Assembly (NCBI GenBank): GCA_947458405.1
Contig: CANGZW010000002.1
Span: forward strand, 1-64,000
DNA length: 64,000 bases
Reading direction: 5' to 3'
DNA from: Leptospiraceae bacterium
Lineage (GTDB): Bacteria; Spirochaetota; Leptospiria; Leptospirales; Leptospiraceae
In this document: piece by piece, positions 4,804 to 28,986 of the stretch
How the letters are laid out: every line of letters begins with the position of its first letter
Position numbering within the stretch: the stretch's first letter is position 1
Made by a program: the position numbers and the translations under genes
The notes under the pieces: model-generated
What the model was told of the DNA's origin: nothing
Databases searched by the model: none
Seen by the model: only the letters and a program-made list of their open reading frames with translations

Positions 4804-6242
4804 TTTAAGTCTCCAGAAGTTGATTCATTAAATAATGTAAGTTCAGACCTAATTCGAAGATATTCTGTTTCGGCTTCAGCTTTTTTTCGATAGAATTCTG
4901 TAACTTGGTTTAATACTTCTGCTAGTTGAAGAATATTGATTGATCCAGTGGAAAATAGATTTTGAGAATTTATTATCTGTTCTTCTTGTAGTTTTTGTGT
5001 TTCACTCATAAGAATGATATTTTCTTTTAAGGATTTCTCCATCCTTGACAAAGAATTATACTTAGCTTTGTCCTTCATTTTCATATCTTCAACTCTTTCT
5101 TTAATTGCTAAACTATTCTGTTTCGCTTCCTCGATTATACCAATATCTGTTGGAGAAAGTAGATTCATTTGAACATATAAACCAGCATTATAAGATGTTG
5201 CTGTATCTCTCGAACCATTATAGGCATAAGCCTCACCAAACATTCCAACTTTTGGAAGATGCCTTGCCTTTTCAGCTTCAATTTGTATTTCAGAACCTTC
5301 TGCATAAGATTTATATGCTTTCGTAATTTTTAACTCTGGATTTATTTCATCAGAATTTTGAATTTTTAAATATTTATCAGAAAAAAGTATCACATTATCA
5401 TCTTTTGGAACCCAATTATTAATTTTTTTATCAGTGATAATTTCTAAATTCTCTTTAAGAGACATTATTTGAGATCGAACGCTATCTTTATTACCCTTGA
5501 TATAGTTTTGGATACTTTTGATACCTAAATAACCTGAGTATCCAATGGGACTCCCTTTAAGCTGAAATCTTTTTTGTAGTCCATCTACTATTTTATTTAA
5601 CTCAATCATCTTTTTTAAATAATTATTCATAACTAATATACTTGAGTAAGTGAAAACTGCTGAAAAGTATTCACTTTGTATTACGAATTCTCTTTCTTTC
5701 TTCTTCCCTTCCAGTTTCTTTTCTGTCATTTTAGAAATATTTACTTTCGAACCACCTTCGTATAGAGGGAGATCAACGCCGATTGTACCACGAGAAAATG
5801 TGTTTGATCCGGGATTATTCAGAGTGTCGGGTGCAAATAAGTTTAGTGTATTATAATTAGGAGTTGTATATATATTGTTACTTGTATCAACATAATTAGA
5901 AAGCCTACTTCTTGTACTTTTTGTTGAGAAGTCTCCATCTAAAGCAGATCTTTGGCCTAGATTGGAAAAGAAATTCATTGCTGGGTCGTTTGTATTATAA
6001 CTTCTTACGTCAGAATATACTTTTGGAATCCAATGTTTACTAGCTCTATTCTTTGCAATCTCAGCAGATTTTTCTTCATGGGAACCTGCTTTCAGTGTAT
6101 GGGAATTTTCGATAACCAAATTCCATATTTCTGAAAATTCTATAACCGAACCTTTAAATACTTCTTCCTCCTTATCAGAATAAACTGGATTAATAAGAAG
6201 TAAGGAACCAAATAATAAAAATATAAACTTCATAGAGAACAT
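4800..6242 (-). CDS. TolC-family outer-membrane efflux channel
   Basis: A 480-residue protein with an N-terminal signal peptide (MKFIFLLFGSLLLINPVYS) and two long alpha-helical repeat regions typical of outer-membrane efflux proteins, for example the segment ending ILQLAEVLNQVTEFYRKKAE. It would form the outer-membrane exit duct for the RND pump encoded just downstream (4-base overlap). The start at 6242 gives MFSMKF; an ATG three codons on at 6233 is equally possible, and both overlap the end of the upstream DUF2892 gene. The tight coupling suggests equal expression of all three genes. The N-terminal third has a long Ser/Asn/Thr-rich stretch around residues 90-150, which may be a surface-exposed loop. 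Confidence 0.88.
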   Translation of the reverse strand: MFSMKFIFLLFGSLLLINPVYSDKEEEVFKGSVIEFSEIWNLVIENSHTLKAGSHEEKSAEIAKNRASKHWIPKVYSDVRSYNTNDPAMNFFSNLGQRSALDGDFSTKSTRSRLSNYVDTSNNIYTTPNYNTLNLFAPDTLNNPGSNTFSRGTIGVDLPLYEGGSKVNISKMTEKKLEGKKKEREFVIQSEYFSAVFTYSSILVMNNYLKKMIELNKIVDGLQKRFQLKGSPIGYSGYLGIKSIQNYIKGNKDSVRSQIMSLKENLEIITDKKINNWVPKDDNVILFSDKYLKIQNSDEINPELKITKAYKSYAEGSEIQIEAEKARHLPKVGMFGEAYAYNGSRDTATSYNAGLYVQMNLLSPTDIGIIEEAKQNSLAIKERVEDMKMKDKAKYNSLSRMEKSLKENIILMSETQKLQEEQIINSQNLFSTGSINILQLAEVLNQVTEFYRKKAEAETEYLRIRSELTLFNESTSGDLK

Positions 6243-6448
6243 TCTTTTTGAGATTTGATACCTAATTTAAAAAGTATAGTACCCATAATACAGAACCCTG
6301 TAATTGAATAAATGGTTAAGTTAATACTTACTAATAAGCATAAAATTAAAAAGTAGGGAGAAAATAAGAAAGATAGTGTTAACCCTATGAGATTAAATAA
6401 TCCCGCCATTAGTAAAATGATTCTTTCTCTATGCCAAAATATTTCCAT
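6230..6448 (-). CDS. DUF2892 (YgaP-type) small membrane protein
   Basis: A 72-residue protein with two hydrophobic segments and the signature GFCIMGTILFKLGIK near the C-terminus. This matches the DUF2892 transmembrane domain found alone or behind rhodanese domains, as in YgaP. These domains recur next to sulfur-handling genes, and here the divergent neighbour is SQR. It is the first gene of the operon with TolC and the RND pump and overlaps TolC by 13 bases (4 bases if TolC starts at 6233). The biochemical role of the free-standing domain is not settled. A part in sulfide or thiocyanate movement, or in anchoring a sulfurtransferase, is inference. Confidence 0.75.
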   Translation of the reverse strand: MEIFWHRERIILLMAGLFNLIGLTLSFLFSPYFLILCLLVSINLTIYSITGFCIMGTILFKLGIKSQKECSL

Positions 6449-6470
6449 AATAATCTCCTTTAAATATAAT

Positions 6471-6486
6471 ATACCATACGGGGTAT
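6471..6486. promoter_or_regulatory. operator-like site 1, ATACC-N6-GGTAT, in the divergent RND/SQR promoter region
   Basis: ATACC ATACGG GGTAT at 6471-6486 is the core of a longer AT-rich inverted repeat: TTTAAATATAATATACC on the left and GGTATATTATATTTAAA on the right. It sits about 22 bases before the DUF2892 start. The GC-tract core flanked by A/T resembles operators of CsoR/CstR-type repressors, known for copper and persulfide sensing. No such repressor gene is in the window. Confidence 0.6.
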
Positions 6487-6585
6487 ATTATATTTAAATG
6501 TCAAGAGGAAAAATAAAAATAGTAAAAAAATCCTTAAAAAACGATAAATAGACTAATTTTTTCCTAAAAAGAAATAATCATATAC

Positions 6586-6601
6586 ATACTATATATGGTA
6601 T
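6586..6601. promoter_or_regulatory. operator-like site 2, ATACT-N6-GGTAT, upstream of SQR
   Basis: ATACT ATATAT GGTAT has the same 5-6-5 geometry as the site at 6471-6486 and lies 30 bases before the SQR start. One half-site differs by one base. Two sites of the same shape facing the two divergent operons suggest a shared regulator. Confidence 0.5.
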
Positions 6602-6631
6602 TGTATATTTAATGAAATGGGAGATAAATAG

Positions 6632-8089
6632 ATGGCAAGAATAGTGATATTAGGGGCAGGAATTGCGGGAAATACAGCGGCGATGTATTCTAGGTCATTC
6701 TCCAAAAAAGAGGATGAGATCATTGTAATATCTCCAAATAGTAAATGGAATTGGATACCATCAAATATTTGGGTAGGAGTAGGTTTGATGTCACCGGAAG
6801 ATGTTACTTTTGAATTAGCACCGATATATCAAAAAATGGGTATCACATATAAACAGGCAAAAGCAGTCAGTATTCACCCCGAAGGAAGTACTTCAAATGA
6901 CAGAGGGTATGTGACTATTGAATATACTAACTCTTTAAAAAGTGGAACAGTGGAAGAAGTATCCTATGATTTTTTAATCAATGCGACAGGTCCTAAATTG
7001 AATTTTGGGGCAACAGAAGGATTGGGTCCAGAAAAAAATAGTTATTCAGTATGTACTTATGGTCATGCAGTTGAGGCAAACAATGCTTTACAAGAATCTA
7101 TTCAAAGAATGAAAAAAGGGGAACGACAAAAGATAGTTATTGGAACTGGTCATGGAAACTGTACCTGTCAAGGGGCGGCGTTTGAATATATCTTTAATGT
7201 TGAATACATTCTTAAACATAATGGAGTGAGAGATAAAGCAGATATAACTTGGATTTCAAATGAATATGAGTTAGGCGATTTTGGAATTGGAGGAATGCAT
7301 ATTAAACGCGGAGGCTATATCACACATTCTAAAATATTTACAGAATCTCTCTTTGTCGAAAGAGGGTTAAATTGGATTACACGAGCTCATGTTCAAAAGG
7401 TAGAAAAAGATAAGTTGTTCTATGAGAATTTAGATGGGGAAGAAAAGTCAGTTGATTTTGATTTTACTATGTTATTACCTCCATTTTCGGGAGTTGGATT
7501 AAAGGCTTTCAATAAAAATAAGGAAGAAATTACCTCAAATTTATTTGCTCCCAATTCTTTTATGAAAGTAGATGCTGATTATACAGTGAAGTCGTACGAA
7601 GAATGGAAGTCTTCCGATTGGCCTACTTACTATCAAAATCAAAGTTATAAAAATATTTTTGCTGTCGGGATAGCATTTGCTCCTCCCCATGCAATTTCAA
7701 AACCTATGAAAAGTCCCAAAGGAACACCAATTTTCCCTACCCCTCCTAGAACTGGTATGCCATCAGGAGTCATGGGAAGAGAAGTAGCAAGAAGTATTAC
7801 AGATATGATAAGAACAGGATCAGATAAACCAACAAGATCTGCTTCTATGTCCTCTATGGGAGCGGCTTGTATTGCATCAGCAGGAGCTGGTTTATTTGAT
7901 GGGACAGCAGTATCTATGACAATGTTTCCAATTATTCCCGATTATGATAAGTATCCAACGTATGGTAGGGATATCAACTATACATTTGGAGAAATTGGAC
8001 TTGCAGGTCACTGGATAAAACATATTTTACATTATGTTTTTATGTACAAAGCAAAAGGAAATCCCTTTTGGAAGATGATACCAGAATAA
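6632..8089 (+). CDS. sqr: sulfide:quinone oxidoreductase-like flavoprotein
   Basis: A 485-residue FAD protein starting with the Rossmann motif ILGAGIAGNTAA. It carries cysteines at about 141 (SVCTYGHA), 177/179 (GHGNCTCQGAAFEY) and 413 (GAACIASAG), matching the places of the three redox cysteines of sulfide:quinone oxidoreductases. The enzyme oxidises sulfide to zero-valent sulfur or polysulfide at the membrane and passes electrons to quinone. The last 30 residues hold hydrophobic and aromatic groups suited to membrane attachment. A GGGAG ribosome site precedes the ATG. It is divergent from the DUF2892-TolC-RND operon and followed after 10 bases by a 48-residue gene. Flavocytochrome c sulfide dehydrogenase is a less likely alternative because no cytochrome gene is near. 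Confidence 0.85.
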   Translation: MARIVILGAGIAGNTAAMYSRSFSKKEDEIIVISPNSKWNWIPSNIWVGVGLMSPEDVTFELAPIYQKMGITYKQAKAVSIHPEGSTSNDRGYVTIEYTNSLKSGTVEEVSYDFLINATGPKLNFGATEGLGPEKNSYSVCTYGHAVEANNALQESIQRMKKGERQKIVIGTGHGNCTCQGAAFEYIFNVEYILKHNGVRDKADITWISNEYELGDFGIGGMHIKRGGYITHSKIFTESLFVERGLNWITRAHVQKVEKDKLFYENLDGEEKSVDFDFTMLLPPFSGVGLKAFNKNKEEITSNLFAPNSFMKVDADYTVKSYEEWKSSDWPTYYQNQSYKNIFAVGIAFAPPHAISKPMKSPKGTPIFPTPPRTGMPSGVMGREVARSITDMIRTGSDKPTRSASMSSMGAACIASAGAGLFDGTAVSMTMFPIIPDYDKYPTYGRDINYTFGEIGLAGHWIKHILHYVFMYKAKGNPFWKMIPE

Positions 8090-16302: not shown

Positions 16303-18327
16303 CTAAATGCCGTGATACTCAATCATAAGTAAAGTTGCATCGTCTTGAATTTTATTTGTCCCTAGTTTATTTTTCCAATCTTGGATAACATATTCTAATG
16401 CACTATCAAATCCAATATTTGATGAATTAATAAAAGAAAACAGAAGCGTCTCAGCATTCCATGAATTTTTTATACTTTCCTCTAAAACTCCATCGGTATA
16501 AAATAATAATCGATCACCTTTTTCTAATTTATCTTTCTTTTCTTCATAAGGAGCTTCAAAATTAGTATTCATACCTAAAAATAAGCCTTTTGTAAAAAGT
16601 ATTTCACCAACATTTTTATTCTTTCTTAATATCAATGGGGGGCGGTGGGCGGCAGATGAATATGTAATATCTCCATCTGGGCTAATTGTAATTAAGAATG
16701 CAGTCAAGTAATCGTGTGTATCTAAAACTTTCCTGGTCTGAATATTTATTTCTCTGAATATTTGAGCTGGTGAAGAGAATTTTGAAATAGCATTAGTAAA
16801 ACTCATTTTGTACATAGTTGCTAATAGGGCCGCAGAAATTCCATGTCCAGATGCATCTGCAATAAAAACAGCAACGGAATTGTTATTTATATTTATGATA
16901 TCAAAAAAATCTCCCCCAACTTGCATTAAGTATTCGTAATGATATTTTACCTTAATAAAAGGATAAATTTTCTCTTTTTCCGGGATAAGACTTCTTTGTA
17001 TATCAGATGCTAATTTTAGTTCATCTAAAATAATTTTTTCTCTTTCTTCTGTCTCTATAAGTTTTTTATATTCATAATTCTTTTGTTTTGAGAGTGATTC
17101 TAATTTTTCTTTTTGTTTTTGTATCTCAATTTGTGGTTCACGAATTCTTAAGGTGATTAGAATAGCTAATACTATCATTTGAATTGAATTGAAAATTTCA
17201 AAAATATTAAGTGTAATAATATTTATAGGAATCAATCCTAAATTTTTAAGATGAAATAAAGAAATTCCTAAAATTGAGGGAAGTAATACAATACTTTGAA
17301 TTTTCGTAGATTTAGGAATATTATTTAATTTGGTTACGCAAAATGAAATTAGTGTTATTAAAATAATCAATTCCATTGTATTTAAAATTATTAATGAAGT
17401 TTGGTACTCTAATTTAAAGACAGGAATTACAAATGGAGTTGAACTTAGAATTAAGTAAAAACAAAAATTCCTTTCCTTTTTATAATTATCCTCTGAGAGT
17501 AATATTTTTATGATTGTATAAAATGTAACCCAATGTAAAAAATAAATACTTAGTAAATATAATTTTTTATGAGTTTCAGGATTTTCAACTAAAAAATAAA
17601 TATAAGTCCCATCTAATCCAGATTGAAAAAAGAAAATCGATAAAATAAATAATATATATTGTAAATATACTAAATCATTTGATCCAATATAAACAATTAT
17701 ATATACTATAAGGACGATGATTATTAATCCATAATATAAACCTAAAATTAAATTATAATCTCTATTTTCCTGCCATAGTGTATCTTCAGTTAAGATTCTC
17801 ACACTAAAAATAGAGGTATCTTCAAAACTTAATTTTAAAAATATATCAATCCTTTGATTCTTATCAAAAGATGAAATTTCAAAGATATGTTTTCTATCTT
17901 TCATATTTCTATCATTAATAGAAATCATTCTTCCAGATTTATAATTTATATACTTATTATTATTTTTTATATACACTTCAATTAAATCAATTAGAGGGTC
18001 ACTAATTTCTAGGTATATTTTTTTATCGATTAAATCAGTTATACTAAGGTATAGAAGAAGATCATTTTGAGAGTATCCAATTCTAAAATATTCTTCTTCT
18101 TGTTTATTAAATGATTCTTTAGGAATTTTATCTAGATAGTCATAATTGGTTTGATAATTTTTATTTATTTCTTTATATAAAATCTTTGAAGTAATGTTGA
18201 TTTTCTTTGAATTTTCATCTACTTTAATATCTTGGGATAATATTGTATTGAATAAAAAGAGAATAAGTACGACAAAATAAATTATTTCATCAAAATATTT
18301 ATAAAATTTTAGATAATAAAATAACAT
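16303..18327 (-). CDS. 7TMR-DISM sensor with PP2C/SpoIIE serine phosphatase output
   Basis: A 674-residue membrane signalling protein. In order: signal peptide (1-31), an extracytoplasmic 7TMR-DISM ligand domain (about 40-185), seven membrane helices (about 190-400), a coiled coil (about 405-440), then a SpoIIE/PP2C phosphatase. The phosphatase shows the metal-binding motifs MQVGGDFFDI and FIADASGHGISAALLA, plus FYTDGVLE near the C-terminus. It would sense a periplasmic ligand and dephosphorylate a cytoplasmic protein, often an anti-sigma antagonist. It is the last gene of an operon after the lipoprotein and ICMT genes. No partner kinase or antagonist is adjacent. Confidence 0.9.
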   Translation of the reverse strand: MLFYYLKFYKYFDEIIYFVVLILFLFNTILSQDIKVDENSKKINITSKILYKEINKNYQTNYDYLDKIPKESFNKQEEEYFRIGYSQNDLLLYLSITDLIDKKIYLEISDPLIDLIEVYIKNNNKYINYKSGRMISINDRNMKDRKHIFEISSFDKNQRIDIFLKLSFEDTSIFSVRILTEDTLWQENRDYNLILGLYYGLIIIVLIVYIIVYIGSNDLVYLQYILFILSIFFFQSGLDGTYIYFLVENPETHKKLYLLSIYFLHWVTFYTIIKILLSEDNYKKERNFCFYLILSSTPFVIPVFKLEYQTSLIILNTMELIILITLISFCVTKLNNIPKSTKIQSIVLLPSILGISLFHLKNLGLIPINIITLNIFEIFNSIQMIVLAILITLRIREPQIEIQKQKEKLESLSKQKNYEYKKLIETEEREKIILDELKLASDIQRSLIPEKEKIYPFIKVKYHYEYLMQVGGDFFDIININNNSVAVFIADASGHGISAALLATMYKMSFTNAISKFSSPAQIFREINIQTRKVLDTHDYLTAFLITISPDGDITYSSAAHRPPLILRKNKNVGEILFTKGLFLGMNTNFEAPYEEKKDKLEKGDRLLFYTDGVLEESIKNSWNAETLLFSFINSSNIGFDSALEYVIQDWKNKLGTNKIQDDATLLMIEYHGI

Positions 18328-24387: not shown

Positions 24388-25107
24388 ATGTCCAATTCAA
24401 AACGATTAGATTATGTCCTAGTTCATGCAGGAATCGGCTCAAGAAAAACAGTAAAAGGCTTAGTACGTAAATCTGATGTATTGGTCAATGGAGTTCGTGT
24501 TCGCGATTCATCTACTCATGTTAAATTTGGTGATACTATTTCCGTCGATGGGGAAGAAATTGAATTTAAAGAGTTTTATTATTTTATGATGAATAAACCT
24601 CCAGGTGTAGTCAGTGCTACAACAGATCCTAGAGAGAAAACAGTTTTGGATTTATTATCAGAATCTGACCAAAAGAAAAGCGTATTTCCCGTAGGTAGAT
24701 TGGATAAAGACACAGAGGGATTAATTTTTCTCACAACTGATGGAAAATTAGCTCACACCCTTCTCTCCCCTAATAATTTTAAAATAAAATCGTATATCGC
24801 ACAAGTTTCTAGTGAGATAAGCAAGGCTGATATAGCCTTTTTTAGAAAAGGGATTATCTTGGATGATGGGTATAAAACAGCCCCTGCAAGACTGGAAATT
24901 ATAGAAGATAATCCTCACAAATGCTCCATTGATTTAACTGAAGGAAAATTTCACCAAATAAAGCGAATGTTTGAGGCAATCGGCAAGGAAGTTATAAAAT
25001 TGAAAAGACTTTCCATAGATAGTCTAAATTTGGATGAATCTCTTCTTCCTGGGGAATATAGAGAACTTACTGAAGAAGAAATAGTCAAATTAAGAGGTAT
25101 CGAATAG
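24388..25107 (+). CDS. pseudouridine synthase, RsuA/RluB family
   Basis: A 239-residue protein with an N-terminal S4 RNA-binding domain (KRLDYVLVHAGIGSRKTVKG) and a pseudouridine synthase domain with the catalytic Asp in PVGRLDKDTEGLIFLTTDG. It converts a specific uridine in rRNA to pseudouridine. RsuA (16S) and RluB/RluE (23S) cannot be told apart safely by reading. The stop codon overlaps the GTG start of the next gene by one base. Confidence 0.9.
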   Translation: MSNSKRLDYVLVHAGIGSRKTVKGLVRKSDVLVNGVRVRDSSTHVKFGDTISVDGEEIEFKEFYYFMMNKPPGVVSATTDPREKTVLDLLSESDQKKSVFPVGRLDKDTEGLIFLTTDGKLAHTLLSPNNFKIKSYIAQVSSEISKADIAFFRKGIILDDGYKTAPARLEIIEDNPHKCSIDLTEGKFHQIKRMFEAIGKEVIKLKRLSIDSLNLDESLLPGEYRELTEEEIVKLRGIE

Positions 25108-25925
25108 TGCCCGATGACGAAATAATATTGACAACCTCTCAATTCCTTCAAGTGGAGAAACTTTCTCTATTGGGAGCTATGTTGGCCGGTATAACCCATG
25201 AGATAAATAATCCATTGAATTATGTCTCTATGGCAAAAGACAGTTTAAAAGATGAACTTAAGGATTTAGATAAAACCTTACAGATTCTAACCGAAGACCC
25301 AGAAGCAGAAGAGATAAGAATAAAGTTCCAGCAAAAATTCGACAAATTATATACGCTACTGTCTGATATAGAAATGGGATTAATGAAAGTATCTACCATT
25401 AACTCTTCTATGAGGAATTACTCTAGATTCGATCAATTAATAGATGAAAATGTAGCTTTGAAAGAAATCTTAGAAGAAACTGAAATCATTTTAGCGAATA
25501 AATTAAAACGTTTTACATACTCAAAATACATTGATTCAATTCCAGCTGTTGCCTGTAACAGGAGTCAAATCTCTCAAGTTATAGCAAATTTACTTACAAA
25601 TGCATGTGATTCTCTTACAGAAAAAAAAGGAAAAGAGAGTTCATTTAATGGTCAGATAAGAGCTAAAATATTTCTATTAAGAGAAGATATAGTAAGAATT
25701 CAGGTTGAAGATAATGGAGATGGTATTAAATTAGAAATACGTGATAAGATTTTTGAGCCTTTTTTTACAACCAAGTCAAAATCAGATGGTATGGGCTTGG
25801 GTTTGACTATAAGCATGAATATAGTCAAAAATCATAAAGGAAATATTTCTGTATCTCATTCTGAAGATTTAGGTGGTGCTAAGTTTATAATTGATCTACC
25901 AGTTCGTTTAACACAGGAAAAATAA
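25107..25925 (+). CDS. soluble histidine kinase without a sensor domain
   Basis: A 272-residue protein from GTG 25107, overlapping the previous stop by one base. The H box GITHEINNPLNY (His31) comes almost at the N-terminus. N box (NLLTNACDSL), G1 (VEDNGDGI), F (FEPFFTTK) and G2 (GMGLGLTIS) boxes are all intact, so ATP binding and autophosphorylation should work. No membrane or sensor domain exists, so input must come from another protein. The response regulator-cyclase 12 bases downstream is its natural partner. The H-NOX/HNOBA pair converging on the same locus is a candidate input. Confidence 0.92.
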   Translation: MPDDEIILTTSQFLQVEKLSLLGAMLAGITHEINNPLNYVSMAKDSLKDELKDLDKTLQILTEDPEAEEIRIKFQQKFDKLYTLLSDIEMGLMKVSTINSSMRNYSRFDQLIDENVALKEILEETEIILANKLKRFTYSKYIDSIPAVACNRSQISQVIANLLTNACDSLTEKKGKESSFNGQIRAKIFLLREDIVRIQVEDNGDGIKLEIRDKIFEPFFTTKSKSDGMGLGLTISMNIVKNHKGNISVSHSEDLGGAKFIIDLPVRLTQEK

Positions 25926-25937
25926 AGAAATTTTAAT

Positions 25938-27071
25938 ATGTTAAATTGGAAGAAAGCGAATACAAAAGATGATTTTATAAGCGAAGGAAAAGTCCTTATC
26001 GTAGATGATGAAGAGCCTAACCTACGACTTCTCGAAGCAATTCTTTCAAAAAAATATAAAGTTATCACCGCCAATAGTGCCCAAGAGGCACTTGAAAAAA
26101 TGAAAGAAAAAGATCTCGGTGTGATTGTCAGCGATCAAAGAATGCCTGATATGAGTGGTACTGAATTATTTGAAGTTATGGAAAAGCAACATCATCCAGC
26201 CCTTCGTATTATTCTTACAGGATATGCTGACATACAAACAGTAGTTGAGGCTATCAATTCAGGAAAAGTATTTCGTTTTATGTCTAAGCCTGTAGAAAAA
26301 TCTGATTTAATGCAAACTGTCCATTCGGCTATGGCACAATTTCATGTAACACAAACGAATCTAAGACTCCTATCTCAAATAAAGAGAATTATGGAAGATA
26401 ATGCAACACTTTCAAAACAAGTCCAGTTGTACAGTGGAGCCAAAATAGAATCATCCAATGAGTTTTTATCTTTTAATAAAGCTCAATTGATTAACCTGTC
26501 AATTCTCAATATTGACTTAAGGGGATACTCTATATATTCTCGAGGAAAAAATCCTGAGCAAGTAATTGGAACTCTACAAGAAGTTTATGAACCTATTTAT
26601 AATTTAATTCATGAGTATGGCGGAATCGTAGATAAGCACATGGGTGATGGTTTGATGGCTCTATTTGGTTTAAATGGAGAAAGTGGACTGGAAGCAGGTA
26701 TCACTAGTCTTGAAAAAATAGTAAATACCTTCCCTTCTATAAAAAATAATCTTACTGATCCATCTGCAAAATTATTAAAAATGGGTATGGGACTTGCTTC
26801 AGGGGAAGTAATTATGGGCATGTTAGGTGATGCAACAAGGTATGAGCTTGCCGTAATCGGACAAGCAGCAAATCTATCGGCTAGATTACAGGAATATTCA
26901 AAATCAATTTTAGCAGGTAAATCTAGCTTAACTAATTTTAATCATATTATTGGTATTACATCAGTAAATGAATACACTTTGCCTCCTAATTTTAAAGATA
27001 TTTATTTACAGGAAGGGGAAGCGATCAGAGATTTCGAGGAAATTAAAAAACTTTCAGTCTTATATAATTAA
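25938..27071 (+). CDS. response regulator fused to class III adenylate/guanylate cyclase
   Basis: A 377-residue two-domain protein. Residues about 16-135 form a receiver with the acidic pair VDDEE, phospho-acceptor Asp66 (IVSDQRMPDMSG) and Lys117 (FMSKPVE). After a helical linker, residues about 185-340 form a class III cyclase with metal-binding Asp193 (NIDLRGYS) and Asp237 (KHMGDGLMALFG) and the ELAVIGQAANLSARLQ segment. Substrate (ATP or GTP) is uncertain because the base-recognition positions are atypical. Phosphorylation would switch cyclic-nucleotide production. It ends tail-to-tail with the HNOBA-kinase gene (4-base overlap). Confidence 0.92.
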   Translation: MLNWKKANTKDDFISEGKVLIVDDEEPNLRLLEAILSKKYKVITANSAQEALEKMKEKDLGVIVSDQRMPDMSGTELFEVMEKQHHPALRIILTGYADIQTVVEAINSGKVFRFMSKPVEKSDLMQTVHSAMAQFHVTQTNLRLLSQIKRIMEDNATLSKQVQLYSGAKIESSNEFLSFNKAQLINLSILNIDLRGYSIYSRGKNPEQVIGTLQEVYEPIYNLIHEYGGIVDKHMGDGLMALFGLNGESGLEAGITSLEKIVNTFPSIKNNLTDPSAKLLKMGMGLASGEVIMGMLGDATRYELAVIGQAANLSARLQEYSKSILAGKSSLTNFNHIIGITSVNEYTLPPNFKDIYLQEGEAIRDFEEIKKLSVLYN

Positions 27072-28438
27072 TTATAAGATAGTAATAATACTATTTCAAC
27101 ATTTCCCTTACTTCCATCCTCTGCTAAAGTAAGAAATCCTCCGCTCTTCCTAATTAATTCGCGCATCATTCCTAAATTTATTAATTCTCCAAAACCAGTT
27201 TTATTTATGTGTAATGAGAATATATCTTTCTTTTCATCACTAGTTAATACCCTACTTTTATGTGATACGCCTATGGATATGAATTTTTTTGTATTATTGA
27301 TTACTCTATCTACTAAAATATTTAATTCATTTACTTGGTTTTTAAATCCTTTTTTCATACTATAATCAAATATTATACGTAAGGCGAATGCCAGAATAAA
27401 AGGATTTCCAAAAAAGTCAAAAGATTCCTCATTTGTATGAAAATAACCATATAAATCTTTACTATTAATATTTACCTTCCAATCATCTTTATTCCATTTG
27501 TTTTTTTGGAGTAAAGAAAGAAAGGTTTTCTGAACCTCTGAAAATATATCCAACCTTGTATATATATCGCCATCAATTTGAGTAATACCCCTCAATTCTT
27601 TAATATTTTCTTGGATACGAATTGATCCCTGCTTAATGCTATCTAAACTACTATATATAGAATTTATGTATTTTTGTATATATTCAAAAAAATCCTCACT
27701 TTCGGGTCCAGGAGGAATTGCTTCTTTAATAGTAGAGATTAAACTTTCAATTGAATCAGAGAGAACCATGTTTCCCGTCAAAATATAATTTAAAGGATTA
27801 TTTATTTCATGTGCTAAGTGAGTTGCAATCTGAGTTAAGCTGGCATCCCTTTCTGCTCTTGAGAGGGCTATTCGAGATTCTTTTAGCTCACTTAAGGCTT
27901 TCTCTGCAGTCTCTTTTTCTAATTTATATTTAATTGTTTTTATTTCTACTGCTGTTGCTAGACTTTCTCCGAGTTTTCTTGTTTCTTCCAGAGCTTTTTC
28001 TAGTTTAGTCATACTCTCTTTTGCATCTAAGAGAGAAATTCTATTCGCTTCAACCGCAAGGAGTAAGTCTCCTGTAGAATCATGAATAGGAAGATCGGTC
28101 ATTTTCATGCCAAATCTTTCTAATTCAGAAGCTGAGTTTATCAATGGAGTACCAATAAGTATCACAAGATCATTATAAATAATAGATTGACCTTTCATTT
28201 GTCTTACAGTCTCTCCCTCAATAGAGAAAAAAAGTACCATCCCTGTAAGTTCTTCCAAAATAGATCTATAAATATTTGTTGAAAAAGGCCGAGTAAGTTT
28301 GATACAACTTAAATCTTCATTGATAAGAATCTTTTTAAAAAATGGTGATATGTAATTAATATCACCTGATTTATCTAGAACAATATAGAATGGAGAGAGG
28401 ATATTTATAAAATCAAATGGTAGTACACCTTCTCCCAT
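27068..28438 (-). CDS. HNOBA-domain histidine kinase-like protein with degenerate ATPase domain
   Basis: A 456-residue cytoplasmic protein. Residues about 5-130 match the H-NOX-associated (HNOBA) domain, including MKGQSIIYNDLVILIGTPLI and MKMTDLPIHDSTGDLLLAVE. A long coiled coil follows (about 130-200), then an intact H box THLAHEINNPLNYI (His210). The C-terminal part should be the ATP-binding domain, but no N box or DxGxG (G1) box is found; only a weak GFGELINLGMM remains. It may be a pseudokinase that can be phosphorylated but does not bind ATP well. It follows the H-NOX gene by 5 bases and is surely its effector. Confidence 0.88.
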   Translation of the reverse strand: MGEGVLPFDFINILSPFYIVLDKSGDINYISPFFKKILINEDLSCIKLTRPFSTNIYRSILEELTGMVLFFSIEGETVRQMKGQSIIYNDLVILIGTPLINSASELERFGMKMTDLPIHDSTGDLLLAVEANRISLLDAKESMTKLEKALEETRKLGESLATAVEIKTIKYKLEKETAEKALSELKESRIALSRAERDASLTQIATHLAHEINNPLNYILTGNMVLSDSIESLISTIKEAIPPGPESEDFFEYIQKYINSIYSSLDSIKQGSIRIQENIKELRGITQIDGDIYTRLDIFSEVQKTFLSLLQKNKWNKDDWKVNINSKDLYGYFHTNEESFDFFGNPFILAFALRIIFDYSMKKGFKNQVNELNILVDRVINNTKKFISIGVSHKSRVLTSDEKKDIFSLHINKTGFGELINLGMMRELIRKSGGFLTLAEDGSKGNVEIVLLLSYN

Positions 28439-28443
28439 ACCAA

Positions 28444-28986
28444 TTATATAAATTCTAATTGCATTCTTTCTGAAGGCAAAGGATTTTCTGATTTAGGAAT
28501 ATGTGTTAATGTAAATTTTTGATTATAGTATGTTCCTAGTCCTGATAATAATCCTTCCACAAAGGGTAATAAACCTGCTCGACTAGAAAAATAATCTATT
28601 TGTATCTTGGTATCAGTAATTTTTTTTACTCGAAAAGAGGGAGGATTTAAATCAGGCATAGTTGCCTTAATCCGACTGTGCATTCCATCGATATTTTCTA
28701 AAAATGATACAAACCCAGTTCCAGTAGAAGTCATTAAATCATTATAACTTTGTGCGGCAATTTTTAATACCCAATATTCACCAAACGCATTCAAAATTTT
28801 TTCAGCAGGTATTTCAAGAACTTCTACAGCCGCTCCAACCAAGTTGTAAGTAATTGAGTCATCATAACTTTGAAATCCTACAAAATCATCAGGAGCATTT
28901 GCCTTCAATTTTATATTATCCCACTTATCCGCTCCAAATTGTTCAGTTACAAGCTCCTTGATTGCTTTATTTACCATTCCGTACAT
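28444..28986 (-). CDS. H-NOX haem-based gas sensor
   Basis: A 180-residue stand-alone H-NOX domain. It begins MYGMVNKAIKELV as in the family, has the proximal haem ligand His103 in IDGMHSRI, and the haem-propionate motif Y-x-S-x-R as Tyr132-Ser134-Arg136. At and next to the position of the distal Tyr that lets some H-NOX proteins bind O2, this protein has Leu-Pro-Phe and no Tyr. This favours a nitric oxide sensor that excludes O2. The HNOBA kinase-like gene follows after 5 bases. NO binding would change the partner's activity and so reach the kinase and cyclase next door. Function in the wider pathway is inferred. Confidence 0.94.
   Translation of the reverse strand: MYGMVNKAIKELVTEQFGADKWDNIKLKANAPDDFVGFQSYDDSITYNLVGAAVEVLEIPAEKILNAFGEYWVLKIAAQSYNDLMTSTGTGFVSFLENIDGMHSRIKATMPDLNPPSFRVKKITDTKIQIDYFSSRAGLLPFVEGLLSGLGTYYNQKFTLTHIPKSENPLPSERMQLEFI

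Follow-up and report, generated by a model that had tools for sequence, protein, structure and literature searches.

How could an H-NOX protein, a candidate sensor of nitric oxide (NO), be coupled to a nucleotide cyclase when the kinase that carries its HNOBA partner domain is degenerate and the intact kinase beside the cyclase has no sensor? The locus that raises this question lies in the window, the whole 64,000-nucleotide stretch of DNA analysed here. It comprises four genes whose open frames are intact and whose Pfam domains agree with the identities and coordinates assigned by an earlier, sequence-only reading:

25107-25925, plus strand: sensorless histidine kinase (HK), GTG start, HisKA and HATPase_c domains, H, N, G1, F and G2 boxes intact, B-type
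25938-27071, plus strand: receiver-cyclase (response regulator), Response_reg and class III cyclase domains
27068-28438, minus strand: HNOBA protein, whole gene, HNOBA and HisKA domains
27944..28438, minus strand: HNOBA (PAS-like, H-NOXA) domain and start of the signalling helix, residues 1-165 of the HNOBA protein
27068..27943, minus strand: pseudo-histidine-kinase part, residues 166-456, DHp motif HEINN kept, CA domain without ATP-contact residues, probably A-type
28444-28986, minus strand: H-NOX (HNOB), 180 aa, identified by Pfam and motif residues
27068..27071, no strand: tail-to-tail overlap of two convergent units, 4 bases, inside a TTAATTA stretch

The four genes had been described as packed tail to tail. 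The 4-base overlap between the convergent ends of the HNOBA and receiver-cyclase genes was confirmed, but the layout is that of two convergent units rather than one operon. The kinase–cyclase unit lies directly 3′ of the genes for a carbamoyltransferase-family protein and an RNA pseudouridine synthase, overlapping the latter gene by 1 base, and packing therefore leaves a joint function of the four proteins unproven. Near the locus, the window also encodes a 7TMR-DISM receptor with a SpoIIE phosphatase output (16303-18327, minus strand).

Sensor pair and degenerate kinase

The HNOB and HNOBA domains were reportedly defined in a 2003 paper. The window H-NOX spans the full HNOB domain (Pfam, 1.3e-45, 1-163/163), shares 45% identity with Nostoc Alr2278 and contains the proximal His103, Pro116 and the YxSxR motif as Y132, S134 and R136. 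The distal position aligned with Met144 of Alr2278 is occupied by Phe142, with no Tyr, a reading of the pocket that draws in part on what is generally known of H-NOX structure. From its sequence, we infer that this H-NOX would respond to NO. In the neighboring protein, residues 6-162 match HNOBA (Pfam, 4e-11). An AF2 model of this domain (pLDDT 85.5) was searched against the PDB with Foldseek; the top 14 matches were all chains of soluble guanylate cyclase (sGC), followed by the PAS domain of Manduca sGC (4gj4) and Nostoc H-NOXA (2p08 and 2p04). Fusion of the domain through a coiled coil to HisKA, in a gene that adjoins H-NOX, is that of an HNOBA/H-NOXA protein.

The C-terminal part of the HNOBA protein matched HisKA (Pfam, 3e-4), and no Pfam HATPase match was found in the protein at E<=1. 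In an alignment of 18 kinases, its DHp keeps the His, the Glu at +1 and the Asn at +4 (His-Glu-x-x-Asn), bearing out the claim of a retained H box. The claimed loss of the ATP-binding boxes was also confirmed, as contact residues of the N, G1 and G2 boxes that mark an active HK are replaced: the second Asn of the N box by Phe, the G1 Asp by His, G1 Gly by Ser and Val, and two G2 Gly by Leu and Asn. Identity in the CA domain is low in this alignment (12-24%). Structure prediction yielded a CA-like fold (pLDDT 72.5 overall) which, together with the DHp and the H box, is that of a pseudo-histidine kinase, with a fold model of moderate quality. The sequence-only reading was to fall if an ATP-binding fold with functional residues were found here; such a fold is predicted, but the functional residues are absent. 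Judged by these replacements, the pseudokinase is not expected to form phosphohistidine from ATP. Its best Foldseek match was the kinase region of RetS at a low TM-score of about 0.4, and because ZraS, LvrB and many other HK structures score close behind, this match is suggestive only. A tblastn search of plasmids with the HNOBA protein returned partial matches to the kinase region only.

Intact kinase and receiver-cyclase

The plus-strand kinase, which matches HATPase_c (Pfam, 1.2e-22) and HisKA, had been called sensorless but intact, and both parts of that description stand. Its boxes are all in place and about 20 residues precede the DHp, so that it is truly sensorless; its input would therefore be needed in trans.

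The downstream protein combines Response_reg (1.2e-22) with Guanylate_cyc (1.1e-8). The receiver contains the acidic pair D23/D24, the phospho-acceptor D66 and K117, and its region has as best NCBIfam match the NO-pathway regulator NosR, at a score of 6e-41 that lies below that model's cut-off. The cyclase has the class III residues, with D193 and D237 for metal, N312 and R316 for the transition state and K233 for substrate. Glu or Lys at the first substrate-specifying position tells guanylyl from adenylyl cyclases, and the window cyclase has Lys233 where the guanylyl-type Glu is found in 2w01. Its product would therefore more likely be cAMP than cGMP, with some doubt left by the atypical second substrate-specifying position, Ala305, which is unusual and common to both cyclases of the relative described next.

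Related gene sets and sensor pairs in other genomes

In a search of the order, the best non-self matches of all three output proteins were found in G022, a relative from another family, within one 13-kb stretch of a single contig:

L193:5358-18954, G022 contig 96: operon with five kinases and two receiver-cyclases

The operon is encoded on a single strand and contains three A kinases, which are mutually similar and partly degenerate, two intact B kinases and the two cyclases. 7TMR-DISM domains occur in four of the five kinases, and two A kinases carry 7TMR-DISMED2/7TM domains. Of the cyclases, the one at 6540-7694 lacks both the transition-state Asn and Arg, while that at 5358-6521 keeps them, a pairing that hints at a heterodimeric cyclase.

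In kinase phylogeny, the two B kinases of this operon form a clade with the window HK (support 99/97 for full-length sequences, 99/98 for the DHp alone), and the operon's three A kinases do so with the HNOBA pseudokinase (98/96 and 91/88, respectively). The pseudokinase sits on a very long branch (4.17; 2.39), and AU tests did not reject other placements (p 0.08-0.12); membership of the A kinases is nevertheless the most likely assignment from the trees. The motif ELRG[IV]T..DG is common to the pseudokinase and the G022 A kinases. In all three of the latter, the G1 Asp is already replaced by Asn with the other boxes largely kept, while Asp is present in all other kinases compared; degeneration thus follows a kinase type. 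Close receiver-cyclases (E<=1e-60) were found in 2 of 393 genomes of the phylum, the window genome and G022, and A-type kinases rise above the general-kinase background in the same two only, as scored with a profile that includes the window sequence and so inflates the window's own score. On these patterns there is a good, though not conclusive, case that an A kinase, a B kinase and a receiver-cyclase form one module, and recurrence of the set in G022 favors a functional connection between the two convergent gene pairs of the window. The searches made of G022 found no HNOBA domain and no H-NOX, so that all four proteins together are known from one genome only. Elsewhere, two receiver-cyclases that each adjoin a stand-alone receiver and large kinases were observed at L199 (G024 contig 27, 5094-17000), and G025 (L200) has kinase/receiver-cyclase sets as well.

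The sensor pair has a different distribution. Among the 80 most similar H-NOX loci from named genomes, an HNOBA domain is encoded beside H-NOX in 77, and each of the three exceptions is at or close to the end of a contig; across bacteria as a whole, then, there is nothing unusual in the pair. Effectors at these loci are mostly kinases, with GGDEF/EAL proteins, PAS-rich proteins and one SpoIIE phosphatase as well. Within the 393 genomes of the phylum, HNOBA was found at E<=1e-8 in the window genome only. Other matches to the family in the class were rejected as HNOBA domains, being short and confined to the model end (the helix before other effectors). The H-NOX neighborhoods of three genomes of the same order (G011, G012 and G014) show a stand-alone H-NOX with no HNOBA or kinase, and the H-NOX gene of G023 runs off its contig. 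A second H-NOX copy in G014 (L036, contig 26) has five in-frame stops and is apparently a pseudogene, the other copy being intact.

Trees built separately from H-NOX and from HNOBA domains both group the window sequence with the proteobacterial/myxococcal loci L073 and L074 (SH-aLRT 97 and 99, respectively), whereas the kinase part of the HNOBA protein groups elsewhere than with other HNOBA kinases. The simplest reading of these trees is that a native A kinase acquired an H-NOX/HNOBA cassette where another sensor had been. Arrival of a whole HNOBA kinase as one unit is less likely, as it is the HNOBA domain and not the kinase part that groups with HNOBA kinases. Several loci in this comparison have architectures of their own. 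L074:6558-9006 reads, across a masked gap, as HNOBA-HK-receiver-HK with two kinase units in one chain, and L073:6558-8435 is cut off just past a possible second H box. In two cyanobacteria (L125:3095-7989 and L146:2993-7991), a single H-NOX gene is flanked by two HNOBA genes, of which one has GGDEF-EAL motifs and the other encodes a kinase, so that one sensor may drive two outputs. At L078:5460-7133, HNOBA is fused to a SpoIIE-type phosphatase adjoining H-NOX.

Proposed route, alternatives and known systems

On balance, and with modest confidence, we favor a two-kinase phosphorelay that controls the receiver-cyclase and to which the H-NOX/HNOBA cassette has been attached, the pseudokinase modulating the intact HK. 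Binding of NO to H-NOX would alter its contact with the HNOBA domain, whose signalling helix would shift the position of the DHp in the ATP-incompetent pseudokinase. That DHp would in turn modulate, upwards or downwards, the sensorless intact HK within a hetero-oligomer, as RetS acts on GacS. The activity of the intact HK would then set receiver phosphorylation and hence the activity of the putative cyclase, most likely making cAMP. The sequence-only reading had drawn the same line from H-NOX through the HNOBA protein and a kinase to the receiver-cyclase; kinase and cyclase relatives that share one G022 operon speak for it, and the convergent, non-operonic units of the window speak against it. 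More tentatively, and with somewhat less than even confidence, we suggest that there are obligate split-kinase pairs, an ATP-dead DHp kinase with an intact kinase, devoted to receiver-cyclases. The dead partner would be a swappable sensor socket, occupied by 7TM-DISM in G022 and by the NO cassette here, where H-NOX would control a class III cyclase. The arrangement is unusual in its sensor on a dead kinase, its sensorless live kinase, its receiver-cyclase output and its co-operonic parallel. It predicts a NO-to-cAMP route in a genome with 29 cNMP-binding-domain matches.

Other functions of the pseudokinase can be weighed against this scheme. It could act on the receiver-cyclase under NO control, as a phosphatase or a phosphate sink, and never contact the intact HK, the latter being only the phosphate donor. 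The H-E-x-x-N phosphatase motif, kept in the HNOBA protein and in all compared A kinases, fits this idea and is characteristic of bifunctional HKs, NosK among them (PMC12570481). We consider it unlikely, as the absence of any sensor from the HK would be left unexplained. HK phosphatase activity also generally involves the CA domain, which is degenerate in the HNOBA protein. A kept DHp His with a degenerate CA domain is likewise found in Spo0B and ChpT, and the pseudokinase His might receive phosphate in trans from the intact kinase, or in reverse from the receiver, in a phosphotransfer step of that kind. This is quite unlikely: with one receiver in the locus, a further relay step would have no obvious acceptor, and the His of the ChrS pseudokinase is dispensable (PMC9491836).

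The convergent orientation, the position of the kinase–cyclase unit behind metabolic and RNA-modification genes and the many other kinases in the genome would also suit two unrelated units that meet by chance, with H-NOX/HNOBA acting elsewhere and the HK/receiver-cyclase sensing something else. Such a coincidence is very unlikely given that G022 encodes relatives of the two kinases and of the cyclase in one operon and that no close cyclase occurs in the phylum sample outside these two genomes. Hardly credible is the notion that the HNOBA protein, once an ordinary HNOBA kinase, is a decaying gene that has lost its function. Its long branch and low CA-domain identity would be expected of decay, but the frame is open over its full length, base composition in the C-terminal half is of the coding type, the predicted CA secondary structure and the DHp motif are kept, and the G1 Asp was already lost in otherwise intact A kinases of G022.

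The favored two-kinase relay can be compared with several known systems. Like H-NOX–HNOBA kinase pairs (Nostoc Alr2278 and the N. punctiforme H-NOXA kinase), the window pair has adjoining genes and an HNOBA–coiled coil–HisKA protein; its CA domain is dead, however, whereas the pairs compared here, among them those at L125, L146, L073 and L136, keep ATP-binding CA domains, and its kinase part comes from another lineage. Control of one kinase by another has precedents in RetS-GacS, DivL-CckA and ChrS-HrrS (PMC12189002, PMC9491836). Control of HrrS by the ChrS pseudokinase arose in evolved strains, and heterodimers are described for the native kinases and not for the truncated variant (PMC9491836). 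As in RetS-GacS and DivL-CckA, a degenerate or atypical HK would here act on an intact one; the RetS region is the best fold match, although the kinship shown is that of the general HK family, and the window adds a NO-cassette input and a receiver-cyclase output. Such pseudokinases dimerise through the DHp, and RetS carries 7TMR-DISMED2/7TM domains, as do two G022 A kinases. The window would offer a natural case in which the sensor is carried by a pseudo-histidine-kinase and the live kinase has none, and RetS-like control would become testable with four small soluble proteins.

In NosP/NosK/NosR, a sensorless HK is placed under a separate NO sensor (PMC12570481). The window system would share this control in trans, and its receiver region is nearest NosR, but it differs from the FIST-based system in its H-NOX/HNOBA sensor, its class III cyclase output and the pseudokinase between them. 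FIST/NosP was rejected as the true NO sensor, with no FIST protein in the window genome. In the Shewanella H-NOX/HnoK network, too, a kinase under H-NOX control feeds a second messenger, there c-di-GMP; that network is not known to include an HNOBA protein or a pseudokinase. The bacterial H-NOX pathways that one review names end in c-di-GMP (PMC8846402), and our search of open-licence papers turned up no description of a cAMP or cGMP receiver-cyclase under H-NOX control. Finally, the locus had been proposed as a bacterial parallel of animal sGC. The sensor half, with H-NOX, HNOBA/PAS and signalling helix, sustains this comparison. In sGC, however, the cyclase is covalently joined to HNOBA and helix, whereas in the window these are separate proteins: HNOBA carries HisKA, the adenylyl-type Lys233 cyclase carries a receiver, and a phosphorelay would run between them. 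As the predicted output is cAMP rather than cGMP, the analogy is limited to the sensor half, and HNOB-HNOBA, the sensor half of animal sGC, would appear to move as a cassette between effectors.
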